From Lactobacillus gasseri ATCC 33323 = JCM 1131 (lineage in GTDB: Bacteria; Bacillota; Bacilli; Lactobacillales; Lactobacillaceae), in the NCBI RefSeq assembly GCF_000014425.1, contig NC_008530.1:248001-312000 (forward strand): DNA of 64,000 nucleotides, in the 5' to 3' direction. This document shows, in pieces, positions 18,004 through 46,550 of the stretch (within the stretch, counting starts at the first letter, position 1; each line of letters opens with the position of its first letter). The notes below the pieces were generated by a model that saw only the letters and a list, made by a program, of their open reading frames with translations, was not told where the DNA came from and did no database searches. The position numbers and the translations under genes were made by a program.

Positions 18004-18139
18004 AAAAAAGACTCCTTCTACCCGTGAATTAGGGTAAAAGAAGTCTATTGTAGTGCTACTTATGACATCGATTACCTATAGTCCAGAATTAATTGGTTCC
18101 GGGTAGAAACTGTCGACCTTATTACGACGATATATAGAT
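18004..18139 (-). promoter_or_regulatory. Guanine riboswitch with terminator, controlling xpt-pbuX
   Basis: On the minus strand the aptamer (18074-18139) has P1 ATCTATA/TATAGGT, P2 GTCG/CGAC with a GG-containing loop, the invariant J2/3 GTTTCTACC, P3 CCGGA/TCTGG with a CC-containing loop, and J3/1 GACTAT. The C in GACTAT (position 74 in the standard numbering) predicts guanine/hypoxanthine rather than adenine. The expression platform is a 15-bp terminator stem (18009-18023 with 18032-18046) and a U-run. Purine binding should favour termination. Confidence 0.93.
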
Positions 18140-18201
18140 ATTTTGATATCTAGAGTGTAGCAGAATCATTTTCCGAACACAAGGGCCTTTTTAGGGATGG
18201 A

Positions 18202-25410: not shown

Positions 25411-25535
25411 TATAATTTTCCCTAAGGAAAGTAAAAACACGATTCGGTTGGTAGTCCGAATGTATAATTATTAACTTTATATCAGTAACCTTCCTCCTAG
25501 GATGTCCATCTTTCCTAATAAATTTTATTAGGAGG
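25411..25535 (+). promoter_or_regulatory. yjdF-motif (azaaromatic) riboswitch, copy 1
   Basis: Downstream of TATAAT (25411-25416), P1 is GGAAAG (25426-25431) / CTTTCC (25510-25515). Inside are an ATTCGG/CCGAAT hairpin with loop TTGGTAGT and the conserved 3' half ATCAGTAACCTTCCTCC, AGGATGTCCATC. The AGGAGG ribosome site (25530-25535) can pair with the P1 3' arm TTTCCT. P1 formation on ligand binding should therefore free the site and turn translation on (inference). The motif is recognised from its conserved segments, its duplicate at 27571 and its yjdF gene. Confidence 0.82.
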
Positions 25536-27555: not shown

Positions 27556-27678
27556 TATAATACTTTCTATGGAAAGTAAAAACACAATTCGGTTGGTAGT
27601 CCGAATATATAATCATATAGCTTTATATCAGTAACCTTCCTCCTAGGATGTCCATCTTTCCTAATATTTTTTAGGAGG
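27556..27678 (+). promoter_or_regulatory. yjdF-motif (azaaromatic) riboswitch, copy 2
   Basis: After TATAAT (27556-27561), P1 is GGAAAG (27571-27576) / CTTTCC (27656-27661). The ATTCGG/CCGAAT hairpin and the 3' conserved half are essentially identical to copy 1. The linker between the two halves has diverged, as has the loop before the AGGAGG (27673-27678). The pairing between TTTCCT and the ribosome site is retained. Confidence 0.82.
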
Positions 27679-35100: not shown

Positions 35101-35112
35101 AAGCCGTGAATT

Positions 35113-36528
<1,416 letters not shown>

Positions 36529-41413: not shown

Positions 41414-43645
41414 ATGATTGATGTAATTGATAATAAATATTTTTATTTACATAATGGTGCAGTCGCATACTTATTTGGATTGTTGCCTAATCACCAATTA
41501 GAGCACTTATATTATGGTGAAGATTTAGGTGAATTATCTAAGAACGATTTAGAATATATGTCGCTTCATCCAAATAAAGCTTCTGGAACAGTGAAATATT
41601 CAAAAAAAATTAAAAATTTTACACTCGCTGATCGAATGCAGGAATTCCCAACGTACGGTACAAGCGATTTTCGTGAGGGTGCTGTAAGTATTGAAAATGA
41701 GGGCGCGTATCTATATCCTGATTTTAAATACGATCATTTTGAGATTACGACAGGTAAGAAAAGAAACTTAGATTTTCCTACTTCATATGGAAATGATAGT
41801 GAAAATTTAATTGTCTCCTTAATTGATACTGATCACCAGTTAGAATTGCAACTTTCATATAGTATTTTTGAAAACTGGTCGGCAATAGTGCGTAAGGCAA
41901 CGATTATTAATCATGGTAAGCAAGAAGTTAAACTTACTAACTTGCAAAGTACAGTTCTCGATTTGCCGAATGATAGTTATGATTTTCTGCAATTATCTGG
42001 AGCTTGGACTAAAGAGCGGCATATTACAACCCGTCCGTTAACGCAAGGAATTACTAAAATTGAATCGTTAAGAGGCGCGTCAAGCCATCAAGAAAATCCT
42101 TTTATTGCACTTGTGGATAAGAATGTGACAAATGACAGTGGAAATATATATGCAAGTAATTTAATTTATTCTGGCAATTTTATTAGCCAAGTGGAAGTTG
42201 ATGAATGGGGACAAAGTAGGTTGATGACCGGAATCAATCCAGCTACTTTTAAGTGGAAATTGGCACCAAATCAGGATTTTTCTACACCAGAAGCTGTCTT
42301 GTTTTACAGTAAGCAAGGCTTTAACGGCTTAATGAAGCAGACGCATAATTTTGTTAAAAAACATATTATTGATCAAAAATGGCAACAACGAGATAGACTA
42401 ATTGTAATTAATAATTGGGAAGCTACTTATTTTGACTTCAATGAAGAAAAGCTGCTGAAATTGGCAGCTCAGGCTAACCAACTAGGAATTGAGTGTTTTG
42501 TTCTTGATGATGGATGGTTTGGTAAACGAGATAGTGATAACAGTTCATTAGGAAATTGGACAGTGGATAAAAGAAAGTTTCCACAAGGATTGGATCATTT
42601 CAGTGCACAGGTGCATAAAATGGGGATGAAATTTGGCTTATGGTTTGAACCAGAAATGGTTTCAGCAGATACTGAACTATATAATATGCATCCCGACTGG
42701 GTTGTTAGACATCCTTACAAGCGTTATTCAGTTGGACGCAGACAATATGTACTTGATTTTGCAAATCCAGCAGTGGTAGATAATATCTATCAGCAGATGG
42801 CTAAAATAATTGAAGATGCTCAAGTAGACTATATTAAATGGGATATGAATCGAAATATTACTGAGGCATATTCGCCGTATTTGTATTCTATTAATCATCC
42901 CCAAGGTGAAATTTTCCACAGATATATTCAAGGTGTTTATAAGTTATACGCAAAGTTATTAACAAGTTTTCCTGACCTGTTAATTGAAGGTTGCGCTAGT
43001 GGTGGCGGACGCTTTGATTTAGGAATTCTATATTATAGTCCACAAATTTGGCCAAGTGATGACAGTGATGCAGTAGAAAGATTAGATATTATGTCAGGAA
43101 CCTTGTTGGCGTATCCTTTATCTACGTTTAGTAATCATGTTTCTGCTGTTCCTAACGATCAAGTAAAAAGAATAACAAGCTTAAAATTTAGACAAAATGT
43201 TGCTTGCTTTGGTCCTTTAGGATATGAGTTAGACCTAAATAAGTTATCAACAGAAGAAAAGAACCAAATTAAAAATTGGATTAGATGGTATAAAGAAAAT
43301 CGTAAATTGTTGGTCAATGGAACTTTTGATCAACTATTAAAATTTGATCCCTCACAAAATACTTATGCTTGGAGTGTAAGCAATTCTAATAAACAGATTG
43401 TCGGATTTTATCGCAAACTTGCGCGACCTAATGAAACTTTAGATCAGTATCTCCCTCTTAAACATTTAAATGATCATCAAAAATATCAAATTAATTTTGA
43501 TCAGATGGTATCGGGTAGAGTTTTACAAAAATTTGGATTACGTGAACCATATCAATTCAATGCTTCAAATCCTGACACTGCGCAAATTAGTGGTGACTTT
43601 CAATCGTATCTTTATCAAATAAAAACTATTGACAGAAAAATCTAA
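41414..43645 (+). CDS. aga: Alpha-galactosidase (GH36)
   Basis: This enzyme releases galactose from melibiose, raffinose and related oligosaccharides. The 743-aa protein has the N-terminal beta-supersandwich, the (beta/alpha)8 barrel and a C-terminal beta domain of GH36. The catalytic nucleophile is Asp477 (YIKWDMNR); the acid/base Asp is in WPSDDSDAVERL (about residue 549). The substrate motif EGCASGGGRFD is intact. No transporter or phosphorylase gene adjoins it, so uptake must be encoded elsewhere. An AAGAGCTA/TAGCTCTT inverted repeat lies in the leader at 41349-41396. Confidence 0.95.
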   Translation: MIDVIDNKYFYLHNGAVAYLFGLLPNHQLEHLYYGEDLGELSKNDLEYMSLHPNKASGTVKYSKKIKNFTLADRMQEFPTYGTSDFREGAVSIENEGAYLYPDFKYDHFEITTGKKRNLDFPTSYGNDSENLIVSLIDTDHQLELQLSYSIFENWSAIVRKATIINHGKQEVKLTNLQSTVLDLPNDSYDFLQLSGAWTKERHITTRPLTQGITKIESLRGASSHQENPFIALVDKNVTNDSGNIYASNLIYSGNFISQVEVDEWGQSRLMTGINPATFKWKLAPNQDFSTPEAVLFYSKQGFNGLMKQTHNFVKKHIIDQKWQQRDRLIVINNWEATYFDFNEEKLLKLAAQANQLGIECFVLDDGWFGKRDSDNSSLGNWTVDKRKFPQGLDHFSAQVHKMGMKFGLWFEPEMVSADTELYNMHPDWVVRHPYKRYSVGRRQYVLDFANPAVVDNIYQQMAKIIEDAQVDYIKWDMNRNITEAYSPYLYSINHPQGEIFHRYIQGVYKLYAKLLTSFPDLLIEGCASGGGRFDLGILYYSPQIWPSDDSDAVERLDIMSGTLLAYPLSTFSNHVSAVPNDQVKRITSLKFRQNVACFGPLGYELDLNKLSTEEKNQIKNWIRWYKENRKLLVNGTFDQLLKFDPSQNTYAWSVSNSNKQIVGFYRKLARPNETLDQYLPLKHLNDHQKYQINFDQMVSGRVLQKFGLREPYQFNASNPDTAQISGDFQSYLYQIKTIDRKI

Positions 43646-43688
43646 GCCAATTACAATATAGATAAATTTTTTTGAGGAGTACTTAATT

Positions 43689-43739
43689 ATGAATACACAA
43701 GCTAATTTTATTAAGAATAATCGTTGGCAAGGCCAGTAA
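43689..43739 (+). CDS. Leader peptide of the ABC transporter operon (Trp-containing)
   Basis: This 16-codon frame reads MNTQANFIKNNRWQGQ, with GAGGAG nine bases before its ATG, as good a translation start as any gene here. It contains one Trp codon (43725-43727) four codons before the stop. It is followed by a chain of hairpins and two intrinsic terminators ahead of the transporter genes. That is the layout of a ribosome-mediated attenuator. The single Trp and the TrpX-like binding protein suggest a tryptophan signal, which is inferred. Confidence 0.65.
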   Translation: MNTQANFIKNNRWQGQ

Positions 43740-43891
43740 ATCAGGTTGTTAGCTAGATGCAACCTGAAAGATTCAGATTGTATCTGTGCTGGCTGTGTAT
43801 TTATTGTGGTCTGCATGGAAGAAACATGCAGACCTTTTCTTTTATAATCAAAAATGATAGGGATCTGCATGGAGTCAGATTCCTATTTTTT
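43740..43891 (+). promoter_or_regulatory. Predicted attenuator with tandem terminators before the TrpXYZ-like operon
   Basis: TCAGGTTG/CAACCTGA follows the leader stop. Terminator T1 is GGTCTGCATG (43808-43817) / CATGCAGACC (43825-43834) with TTTTCTTTT. T2 is an 11-bp stem 43857-43867 / 43876-43886 with six T. The 3' arm of T1 can instead pair with the 5' arm of T2 (GGATCTGCATG, 43861-43871) over eight contiguous bases, breaking both terminators. ATGCAACC (43757-43764) can pair with the T1 5' arm (one bulge). The arrangement forms mutually exclusive states. Which state is favoured by stalled translation is not determined. Confidence 0.65.
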
Positions 43892-43904
43892 GTGGGGAAA
43901 AATT

Positions 43905-44897
43905 ATGAAAAGAATGTATGGATTAATTGCAATTTTAATAACTTTTTTAGCAGTAGCTTTTTTCACTGAAAATCGTGAACAAGAAGCAGATAAAAAAGTA
44001 CCGCAGGTTGGGGTTTTAACTTTAATGCATCACCCAGCTCTTGATGAAATATATCGTGGCTTTAAAGCAGAATTAAAAGAAGCAGGATATATAGATGGAA
44101 AAAATATCAAAATTGATTATCAAAACGCAAATAATGATCAAAGCAATTTGCGTACTATGGCTACTAAGTTAACTGATGAACAGTCAAAGGTACTTGTTGG
44201 AATTACGACGCCAGCTGCTCAAGCATTGGCAAATTCAACCAGTAAAACGCCAATTGTTTTAGGAGCAGTAACAAATCCAAAAGCGAGTGGTTTAGTGAAA
44301 AATGAACGCCATCCAGAATCAAATGTAACTGGAGTATCCGACGCTGCTCCGATTAAACAACAGTTAGATTTAATTAAAGAATTTATGCCTAATCTGAAAA
44401 CACTAGGAGTAATTTATACTTCAAGCGATTCTTCTGCAGTTAGTGGTTTTCATGAAATTGAACAAGAATGTAAAAGAAGAAAAATAAATTTAAAGGTATT
44501 TTCAATAGCAAATAGCAATGATCTTAATCAGGTATCAGAGCAAATGTTTAGGCAGGTGGATGCGGCCATAGTACCTACTGATAATACAATTGCTGGAGCA
44601 ATGGAAACTTTGGTTAAAAACGGAAATGCTGCTAAGAAACCTATTTTTCCAGCGGCTGCAACAATGGTAAAGCAAGGTGGCTTAGCAACATATAGTGTTA
44701 ATCAGTACAAACTGGGGCAGATGACTGGAAAAATGACAATTGCCATTTTAAAAGGTAAAAGGGTCAGTTCATTACCAGTAGAAAGAGTTCAAAAAGGAGA
44801 ACCTGTGGTTAACTTAAAAGAAGCAAAAGAATTGAATCTCCAAGCGCCACAAAGATTTCTAAAAGAGTGTCAAAGAAATGGGGTTGTGTACAGATGA
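43905..44897 (+). CDS. ABC transporter substrate-binding protein, TrpX-like
   Basis: This 330-aa solute-binding protein belongs to the family that includes streptococcal TrpX (PF04392-type). The start at 43905 has GGGGA upstream; the longer frame runs through terminator T2 and is leader. The N-terminus is a hydrophobic segment (LIAILITFLAVAFF) without a lipobox Cys, so it is probably anchored by this helix. Two lobes follow (VPQVGVLTLMHHPALDEIYRGF, LVGITTPAAQALANST, DAAIVPTDNTIAGAMETL). The stop overlaps the permease ATG. Amino-acid specificity is suggested only by homologues and the leader. Confidence 0.82.
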   Translation: MKRMYGLIAILITFLAVAFFTENREQEADKKVPQVGVLTLMHHPALDEIYRGFKAELKEAGYIDGKNIKIDYQNANNDQSNLRTMATKLTDEQSKVLVGITTPAAQALANSTSKTPIVLGAVTNPKASGLVKNERHPESNVTGVSDAAPIKQQLDLIKEFMPNLKTLGVIYTSSDSSAVSGFHEIEQECKRRKINLKVFSIANSNDLNQVSEQMFRQVDAAIVPTDNTIAGAMETLVKNGNAAKKPIFPAAATMVKQGGLATYSVNQYKLGQMTGKMTIAILKGKRVSSLPVERVQKGEPVVNLKEAKELNLQAPQRFLKECQRNGVVYR

Positions 44898-45793
44898 ATT
44901 TGATCGTATCTGCAATTGGTCAAGGATTATTATGGGCATTATTAGGCTTAGGATTATATTTAACTTTTAGAATTTTAAATTTTGCTGATATGACAGTCGA
45001 AGGAACTTTCCCATTAGGAGCAGCTGTGGCTGTTGCTAATCTTGCTCATGGAATGTCACCATATTTGGCTACTTTTTTAGCTTTGCTTGCGGGGATGCTT
45101 GCAGGGTTAGTGACCGGTTTATTATATACAAAGGGAAAAATTCCGATTTTGCTTGCTGGTATTTTGACGATGACTGCGATTTATTCAATTAACTTGAGAA
45201 TTATGGGCGGTTCTAATATTTCATTAATTGGTAAGAAAACTCTGCTTAATAATGAATTTTTGAGATCTCTACCTCAGTATTTTAATAGCGTGGTCTTAGG
45301 AATAATAGTTGTAGTAATTATTACAGGAATTTTGGTTTTCTTTTTAAATACAGATTTTGGTCAAGCTTTTATTGCTACGGGAGATAATCCTAAAATGGCT
45401 AAGTCTTTAGGAATCTATACTGATTCAATGATAATTATCGGTTTAATGCTTTCAAACGGAATTGTTGCCTTGTGCGGAGCATTAATTGCGCAAAATAATG
45501 GCTATGCTGATATCAATATGGGCATTGGAACGATTGTTATTGCTTTAGCTTCAATTATTATTGGTGAAGTAGCTTTTGGAGAATTAACGTTAAATCAAAG
45601 ATTAGTAGCAGTGACTTTAGGGAGTATTATTTATCGCTTAATTTTATTAGCAGTCTTACAACTAGGCTTTTCAGCTAATGATTTAAATTTAATTTCTTCA
45701 ATTGTTTTGGCACTTTGCATGATGCTGCCACAATTAGAAAAAATTGTTCACTTGAAGAAGCCGATAGAGAAAGGAGTGAAGAAGCATGACTAA
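44894..45793 (+). CDS. ABC transporter permease, TrpY-like
   Basis: This 299-aa integral membrane subunit has about eight helices and belongs to the branched-chain/BMP-type permease superfamily (motifs FRILNFADMTVEGTFPLGAA and GDNPKMAKSLGI). The start at 44894 overlaps the stop of the binding protein by ATGA, the normal sign of coupling. It ends 8 bases inside the ATPase gene. It pairs with the flanking binding protein and ATPase to form one importer. Confidence 0.85.
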   Translation: MNLIVSAIGQGLLWALLGLGLYLTFRILNFADMTVEGTFPLGAAVAVANLAHGMSPYLATFLALLAGMLAGLVTGLLYTKGKIPILLAGILTMTAIYSINLRIMGGSNISLIGKKTLLNNEFLRSLPQYFNSVVLGIIVVVIITGILVFFLNTDFGQAFIATGDNPKMAKSLGIYTDSMIIIGLMLSNGIVALCGALIAQNNGYADINMGIGTIVIALASIIIGEVAFGELTLNQRLVAVTLGSIIYRLILLAVLQLGFSANDLNLISSIVLALCMMLPQLEKIVHLKKPIEKGVKKHD

Positions 45794-46550
45794 GCCAATT
45801 TTAGAATTAAAAGATGTAAAGACTACTGTAAAGACAGCTGATGGTGAAATAGTTCCTATTTTAAAGGGAATAGATTTAAAAATTAAAGCTGGGGATTTTA
45901 TTACTATTATTGGAACGAACGGAGCAGGCAAATCTACGCTGTTGAACACTATTGCGGGTAGTTTAAGACCAGATAGTGGTTTTCTTCTCCATAATGGACT
46001 GGATATTACTAAAATGAGTGAAGAAAAGCGGACACAATTTATTGGACGTGTTTTTCAAGATCCTAAGTTGGGGACTGCTCCGAGAATGACAGTAGCGGAA
46101 AATCTTTTGTTAGCAACTAAGAGAGGTAAGAGAAGATTTTTAAGAATTAGAAAGTTAAAGCAAAACTTACCACGTTTTAAAAAATTAGCTGCAGTCATGA
46201 ACAATGGCCTAGAAAATCGCTTAAATACTTTTGTAGAAGGTTTATCAGGTGGTCAAAGACAAGCTCTAAGTTTCTTAATGGCTACGATTGAAAGACCAGA
46301 TATTTTGCTGCTAGACGAGCATACAGCAGCGCTAGACCCACATACAAGTGAAAATTTATTGGCAGTAACTGATCAGCAGATTAAGGAAAATAAATTAACT
46401 GCTTTAATGATTACACATCATATGGAAGACGCCTTAAAGTATGGGAACCGTCTCTTAGTTTTAAAAGATGGAAAAGTTAAAGCTGATATTAATGAAAGAG
46501 AAAAGCAAAACTTAAAAGTAGGTGATCTATATAAATATTTTGAAGATTAA
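45786..46550 (+). CDS. ABC transporter ATP-binding protein, TrpZ-like
   Basis: This 254-aa ATPase has Walker A GTNGAGKST, Q-loop VFQDPKLG, signature LSGGQRQALS, Walker B ILLLDEHTAALDP and switch His in MITHHMED. The start overlaps the permease gene by 8 bases, preceded by AAAGGAG. It completes the three-gene importer. A terminator follows at 46556. Confidence 0.9.
   Translation: MTKPILELKDVKTTVKTADGEIVPILKGIDLKIKAGDFITIIGTNGAGKSTLLNTIAGSLRPDSGFLLHNGLDITKMSEEKRTQFIGRVFQDPKLGTAPRMTVAENLLLATKRGKRRFLRIRKLKQNLPRFKKLAAVMNNGLENRLNTFVEGLSGGQRQALSFLMATIERPDILLLDEHTAALDPHTSENLLAVTDQQIKENKLTALMITHHMEDALKYGNRLLVLKDGKVKADINEREKQNLKVGDLYKYFED

Follow-up and report, generated by a model that had tools for sequence, protein, structure and literature searches.

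Organization of the trpXYZ locus

The leader described here lies between an alpha-galactosidase-like gene (judged by eye) and the trpXYZ genes in a 64,000-nucleotide stretch of the genome of Lactobacillus gasseri ATCC 33323 (NC_008530.1), and "the window" refers to this whole stretch (Table 1). The product of trpX scored 459 bits against the NCBIfam model ABC_SBP_TrpX (cut-off 390). No trpB gene was found in this genome by a search that was positive in 14/14 control genomes, so that, judging from gene content, the TrpXYZ importer is probably important for the growth of this strain.

The short frame with its ribosome site and one Trp codon, the hairpin right after its stop codon, and two intrinsic terminators are all present where a sequence-only reading of this DNA had placed them. 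Within the window alone, three terminator-like sites were found in this AT-rich stretch compared with 2.8 expected in shuffled sequences. Because these hairpins are no rarer than chance, their conservation in relatives was examined, and it is this comparison of sequences that gives the terminator hairpins their significance.

Table 1. Features of the trpXYZ leader region and operon, with coordinates in the window.
Feature	Coordinates	Strand	Evidence or remarks
Promoter, sigma-70 type, TTGACA-17-TACAAT	43629..43657	+	11/12 consensus matches
Leader ORF Shine-Dalgarno (SD), GAGGAG	43674..43679	+	anti-SD duplex -8.1 kcal/mol
Strand S, leader start region; can pair with 3c	43688..43705	+	-16.5 kcal/mol in window
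Leader peptide ORF MNTQANFIKNNRWQGQ, 16 codons	43689..43739	+	single TGG at 43725-43727
Strand A, final codons of the leader with its stop codon; predicted partner 3b when ribosome-free	43731..43738	+	covariation
Strand 1, partner of strand 2; 5' arm of the hairpin directly after the stop codon	43741..43748	+	covariation
Hairpin 1:2, immediately 3' of the leader stop	43741-43767	+
Strand 2, partner of strand 1 or strand 3a	43755..43767	+	covariation
Strand 3a, partner of strand 2; helix 2:3a equals P1 of the published trpB motif	43778..43785	+	covariation, Rfam alignment
Strand 3b, predicted switch strand; partner A (OFF) or T1 5' arm (ON, antiterminator)	43783..43794	+	covariation, duplex energies
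Strand 3c, partner of start region S	43789..43805	+	duplex energies
Terminator 1 (T1; strands 4 and 5)	43808..43834, U tract 43835-43843	+
Terminator 2 (T2; strands 6 and 7); 5' arm pairs with T1 3' arm	43856..43887	+
Match to Rfam RF04312, trpB ncRNA motif	43751..43845	+	46.4 bits (gathering 59)
trpX, tryptophan ABC transporter substrate-binding protein	43905..44897	+	NCBIfam ABC_SBP_TrpX; ATG at 43905
trpY, ABC permease	44894..45793	+
trpZ, ABC ATPase	45786..46550	+

Conservation of the leader peptide

A relative of TrpX is present in 68 of 75 Lactobacillus genomes, and all 51 Lactobacillus trpX loci examined have an SD-led leader ORF of 13-18 codons followed by two tandem terminators. In each of these 51 loci the leader Trp codon lies three to six codons 5' of the stop codon and the strength of the anti-SD duplex is similar. 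Most relatives also have a TTGACA-like box 5' of their leader. A leader of this kind, which typically has W-Q-S-R at its end, was found in Limosilactobacillus, Paucilactobacillus, Bombilactobacillus, Levilactobacillus, Furfurilactobacillus, Pediococcus, and Secundilactobacillus. It is absent from a few of the family loci examined (L111, L122, L124, L128, L149, and L155).

Among 53 non-redundant leaders, TGG occupies one fixed position in all and is followed by CAA in 52. An in-frame ATG with an SD was found upstream of the TGG in 52 of the 53, compared with 0.7% of dinucleotide shuffles, the loci behind this count having been selected for carrying such an ORF. Most leaders have one Trp codon, and two adjacent codons (WW) are present in seven of the 53. 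Runs of tandem control codons, which are usual in attenuators and not essential for the mechanism, are lacking in the Trp leaders and present in the Tyr/Phe types described below. As a check, the sequence-only reading had proposed aligning the leader across lactobacilli for a conserved Trp codon and covarying arms; both were found, the codon in 51/51 genus loci and the covariation of the alternative arms in an alignment of 42 leaders.

Alternative helices and covariation

For covariation counts, 42 diverse leaders were aligned, with shuffles and slid controls for comparison. The antiterminator helix 3b:4 (AT1) is 90% paired and has 56 double-changed cells (21 in shuffles). The corresponding values are 92.5% and 30 (12 in shuffles) for A:3b, 99.3% and 37 (10 in shuffles) for 2:3a, and 88% and 26 (7 in shuffles) for 1:2. 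For all four helices the slid controls were far below the true register, and these controls weigh more since the shuffles ignore the kinship of the leaders. Strand 3b pairs with A and with strand 4, and strand 2 with strand 1 and with strand 3, so that these covarying helices exclude one another, as is the signature of a switch. The pairings suggest an alternating chain, in which 1:2, 3:4, and 5:6 would form in the ON state and 2:3 (together with A:3), 4:5, and 6:7 in the OFF state.

The antiterminator differs from the one first proposed. The sequence-only reading had taken ATGCAACC (strand 2) as the partner of the T1 5' arm, but 3b is the better partner in the window (-12.8 vs. -9.1 kcal/mol). 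Strand 2 was weaker than 3b in 52/52 leaders and was rejected as the antiterminator. In every genus locus the best upstream partner of strand 4 is 3b, with the reported 3b:4 duplex also taking in upstream bases in one case (L032). Strand 3b, A:3b, the 2:3 helix, and S:3c are additions to that earlier account. S:3c is supported as well, the duplex energy in 52 leaders being -12.1 kcal/mol with own partners and -7.2 kcal/mol with swapped partners. A cross-clade swap control was also used for AT1 and A:3b and is informative only where the clade sequences differ. Strand A coincides exactly with the expected position of a ribosome holding UGG in its A site.

Probable coupling of the two terminators

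The 3' arm of T1 can pair with the 5' arm of T2 (CATGCAGA:TCTGCATG), as had been noticed from the sequence alone; this pairing (5:6) is real, and most clades conserve it. When loop and U tract were counted in, 5:6 averaged -10.9 kcal/mol in 53 leaders, compared with -7.9 kcal/mol for the mirror pairing of the T1 5' arm with the T2 3' arm (4:7) and -8.2 kcal/mol for swapped partners. It beat the mirror pairing in 41 of the 53 leaders (p=2e-5, a value not corrected for phylogeny and inflated by related sequences), and this mirror control supports the pairing. When the arms were trimmed of loop and U tract, 5:6 was indistinguishable from the mirror pairing (p=0.14). In two Lactobacillus clades (g and f) the pairing is absent in one and weak in the other. 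Across the loci analyzed, T1 was assigned by hand in five, and both terminators were unresolved by the automatic finder in 24 further ones.

Outside these two clades, the duplex energies suggest that T2 is likely coupled to T1 through 5:6 cross-pairing. For the second terminator only, another reading is that T2 acts as an independent backup and that its complementarity to T1 stems from hairpin duplication. The sharing of TCTGCATGGA by the T1 and T2 5' arms in the window, the exceptions in clades g and f, and the lack of a significant excess in trimmed arms are in its favor. A simple duplication would preserve the mirror pairing 4:7 equally, and the excess of 5:6 over both the mirror and the swapped partners in arms with loop and U tract, as measured with kinship uncorrected, speaks against this reading. 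We regard an independent T2 as possible but somewhat doubtful.

Relatives with other sensor codons

Matches to a covariance model built from the leader were obtained in 206 of 301 genomes of Lactobacillaceae and in 138 of 295 of Lactobacillales, the weak ones including noise. Those away from the usual place include leaders with other sensor codons. Leaders ending in NNYYFSYFR precede aroE, and the YYFSYF-type pattern had 75 matches in 53 of 295 genomes, compared with two for the reversed pattern. Thirty Tyr/Phe loci were read, of which most are 5' of aroE, three of a DAHP synthase gene, and several of a gene for a TrpX-like substrate-binding protein (SBP), the last with FFF, FYF, or YYF codons. 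Both A:3 and 3b:4 are intact in most Tyr/Phe leaders; the automatic T1 call picked the second terminator in several of these loci. In another class, an FF..F leader precedes a sodium-dependent transporter. Trp leaders also precede trpB and OppA-like proteins, and IRLRSR leaders precede an SBP_bac_3 amino-acid transporter and an OppA-like protein.

This match between sensor codon and downstream gene argues strongly for reading of the RNA by a ribosome rather than by a ligand, and is the strongest evidence for it. Sensor codons may also predict transporter substrates. TrpX-like binding proteins follow FFF/FYF/YYF leaders in L243 (1755-2726), L244, L248, L250, and L263. The L243 protein scored 345 bits, below the TrpX cut-off of 390, and such TrpX-like proteins behind Phe/Tyr codons are probably a subfamily of Phe/Tyr importers. 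In L198, L199, L211, L215, and L208, located before amino-acid/peptide ABC genes, the leader has an IRLRSR end with CTG instead of the Trp codon. The amino acid sensed by IRLRSR leaders may be Arg or Leu, as read from their codons.

Several matches of the covariance model were rejected as members. These are the bare terminators L218, L219, L222, L225-L227, and L229, and the phylum-level matches L233 and L234, which have no leader and no trp context. In L191 (G118:C1, 26958 onward), an ORF resembling a group-II-intron reverse transcriptase is found directly after T1 of a second leader copy. In L207 (G338:C59), an apparent C-terminal remnant of trpX directly follows a second copy of the leader that has decayed.

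A model of ribosome-mediated attenuation

Taken together, we conclude that the element very probably attenuates transcription of the trpXYZ importer operon by a ribosome-mediated mechanism, with the charging of Trp-tRNA as the signal. This view is directly supported by the leader ORF, the sensor codon, the helices with covariation, and the codon-gene match in relatives, and the suggestion in the sequence-only reading that leader translation controls a TrpXYZ-like importer by attenuation has gained from the same lines of evidence. As expected for an attenuator, an SD-led translatable leader ORF is located just 5' of the structural switch, the control codons fit the regulated genes (Trp for trpX and trpB; Tyr/Phe for aroE and DAHP synthase), and the terminator and antiterminator are mutually exclusive with support from covariation. 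By classical standards a single Trp codon is a weak sensor, and this counts against the model, as do the folding results below and the clades with little T2 coupling.

With ample Trp, the ribosome would complete the leader peptide and leave. Strands A and 2 would then trap strand 3 (A:3b and 2:3a), T1 would form, and a polymerase slipping past T1 would meet T2. Under Trp shortage, it would stall at the single UGG and cover strand A, such that hairpin 1:2 could form and 3b would be free to capture the T1 5' arm. This would release the T1 3' arm, which would in turn capture the T2 5' arm; both terminators would fail together, and trpXYZ would be made. In the absence of translation, A:3b and S:3c would hold the operon off. 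The parts of this model that we infer are the stalling on uncharged tRNA, the order and kinetics of folding, the coupling of T2, and the role of S:3c.

Full-length equilibrium folding of the leaders, uninformative by itself, always yields T1, so that switching must be kinetic; a kinetic switch is expected to behave in this way. In partial transcripts ending before strand 5, a ribosome mask on the Trp codon alone led to 3b:4 in 23% of leaders, the same mask with 1:2 locked in 55%, and masking of the start region as well in 94-100%. Such masking of the start region could, we infer, come from a trailing ribosome, and the predicted folds make the start region look like a second lock, to be opened by that ribosome. 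Room for two ribosomes is doubtful where the Trp codon is only 24-27 nt after the start, as in some clades.

Relation to the trpB motif and to known attenuators

At gathering thresholds, no Rfam family matched the leader. At a lax threshold, RF04312 matched the window with 46.4 bits (E 1.3e-5; cut-off 59), and this cut-off was passed by relatives, namely, the trpB-linked L205 (65.9 bits), L194 (60.4 bits), and L230 (68.7 bits). The architecture of RF04312, i.e., a P1 hairpin, a linker, an intrinsic terminator, and an antiterminator in the 3' side of P1, was found in the element. According to the text available to us, this trpB motif is a strong riboswitch candidate of Firmicutes and Fusobacteria with an unknown ligand, located mostly upstream of an uncharacterised amino-acid-like ABC transporter and sometimes of trpB (Narunsky et al., 2024; PMC11109978). 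In the same text, the authors favored a riboswitch, although they were unable to exclude an attenuator.

The motif, as given in that text, and our element have the same core, with P1 corresponding to 2:3a and the terminator to T1, and an antiterminator on the right shoulder of P1 had already been noted (PMC11109978). The RF04312 model starts at strand 2, and the leader ORF, the Trp codon, A:3b, 1:2, S:3c, and T2 lie outside it. A leader peptide is not mentioned in the available part of the source paper. The sequence-only view that the mechanism was unrecognised for this transporter family is thus too broad for the RNA core, which has been published, and holds for the leader peptide as far as that part of PMC11109978 goes. 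In a literature search covering few subscription journals, no further paper naming the trpB motif was found, and an earlier attenuator description may exist.

The published classification as a strong riboswitch candidate, together with the conserved hairpin plus terminator, would fit a riboswitch. We consider this very unlikely, since the SD-led ORF with its invariant Trp codon sits where the RF04312 model stops, and since the architecture persists in relatives that have Tyr/Phe, Phe, or Arg/Leu codons in front of genes whose function matches these codons or is plausible. The comparison suggests instead that what has been called the trpB motif is in reality an attenuator read by the ribosome. 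An orphan riboswitch candidate from the literature, which has over 900 representatives, would thereby gain a concrete mechanism that can be tested, and ligand work on the motif should, this suggests, turn to the missing leader peptide.

A second Rfam family, RF02863 (Enterococcus sRNA 2410), matches the Tyr/Phe-codon leaders L243, L224, L241, L245, and L237. Its matches include Tyr/Phe members before aroE, DAHP synthase, and the TrpX-like SBP; the family differs from our element in being catalogued as a small RNA. Judging from these matches, Enterococcus sRNA 2410 may be a terminated leader; a search for its origin found none. Whether RF04312 and RF02863 both belong to a single old attenuator platform, modular in design and present in Lactobacillales and some other Firmicutes, is, in our judgment, an even call. 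Such a platform would be retargeted by leader codon swaps and work by strand displacement along a seven-strand chain, with one ribosome event disabling two serial terminators and the start region as an extra lock demanding active translation.

A TnaC-like mechanism, in which free tryptophan arrests the nascent peptide at the stop codon and the genes are ON at high Trp, could account for a short leader with Trp near its end and a strongly conserved W-Q-S-R. We find this highly improbable, given that an importer would be expected to respond with the opposite sign where trpB is absent, as in this bacterium, the conservation of residues after W is explained at the RNA level by strand A, and the sensor residue is freely exchanged in relatives. 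Direct sensing of uncharged tRNA-Trp by a T-box-like element, as for trpXYZ of Streptococcus suis (PMC9382623) and for an ABC transporter with a Trp T-box ahead of it (as read from the L. plantarum column of the table in PMC2494555), involves the same kind of transporter and the same signal (Trp limitation leading to ON) and would fit the UGGC in the leader, but those T-boxes bind tRNA directly without translation, and this reading has next to no probability here, with no RF00230 match at the leader vs. 18 T-boxes elsewhere in the same genome, none in the relatives' trpX leaders scanned, no stem I, and the UGG inside a translated ORF.

The attenuator model can be compared with other attenuators. 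The Escherichia coli trpL attenuator has two adjacent Trp codons and four strands. Both trpL and our element have a leader peptide with Trp codon and mutually exclusive hairpins, with the position of the ribosome deciding between them. Unlike trpL, the element has mostly one Trp codon, seven strands, two terminators, and the opposite parity, in that 1:2 accompanies readthrough. The Rfam matches to the leader at E<=10 did not include RF00513. The tandem attenuators of Salmonella mgtCBR likewise put a single operon under attenuation elements arranged in series; mgtCBR has two leader ORFs and two signals (PMC3641672), whereas here one leader and one switch strand would drive both terminators. The Firmicutes attenuators of hisS/hisZ (PMC2965389), his operons (PMC9413887), and Staphylococcus aureus ilv (PMC5794164) are also ribosome-mediated and Gram-positive but involve other amino acids, with control-codon runs in the his cases and no such strand chain described in the available text of these papers. 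Lactic acid bacteria are generally regarded as relying on T-boxes; our findings would make classic leader-peptide attenuation a widespread system among them, and one that can be retargeted.

Other RNA elements in the window

The window also contains two azaaromatic (yjdF) riboswitches on the + strand (25421-25525 and 27566-27671; 95 and 93 bits), which are ~2 kb apart, a purine riboswitch on the - strand (18059-18157), and a fluoride riboswitch on the + strand (35109-35169).
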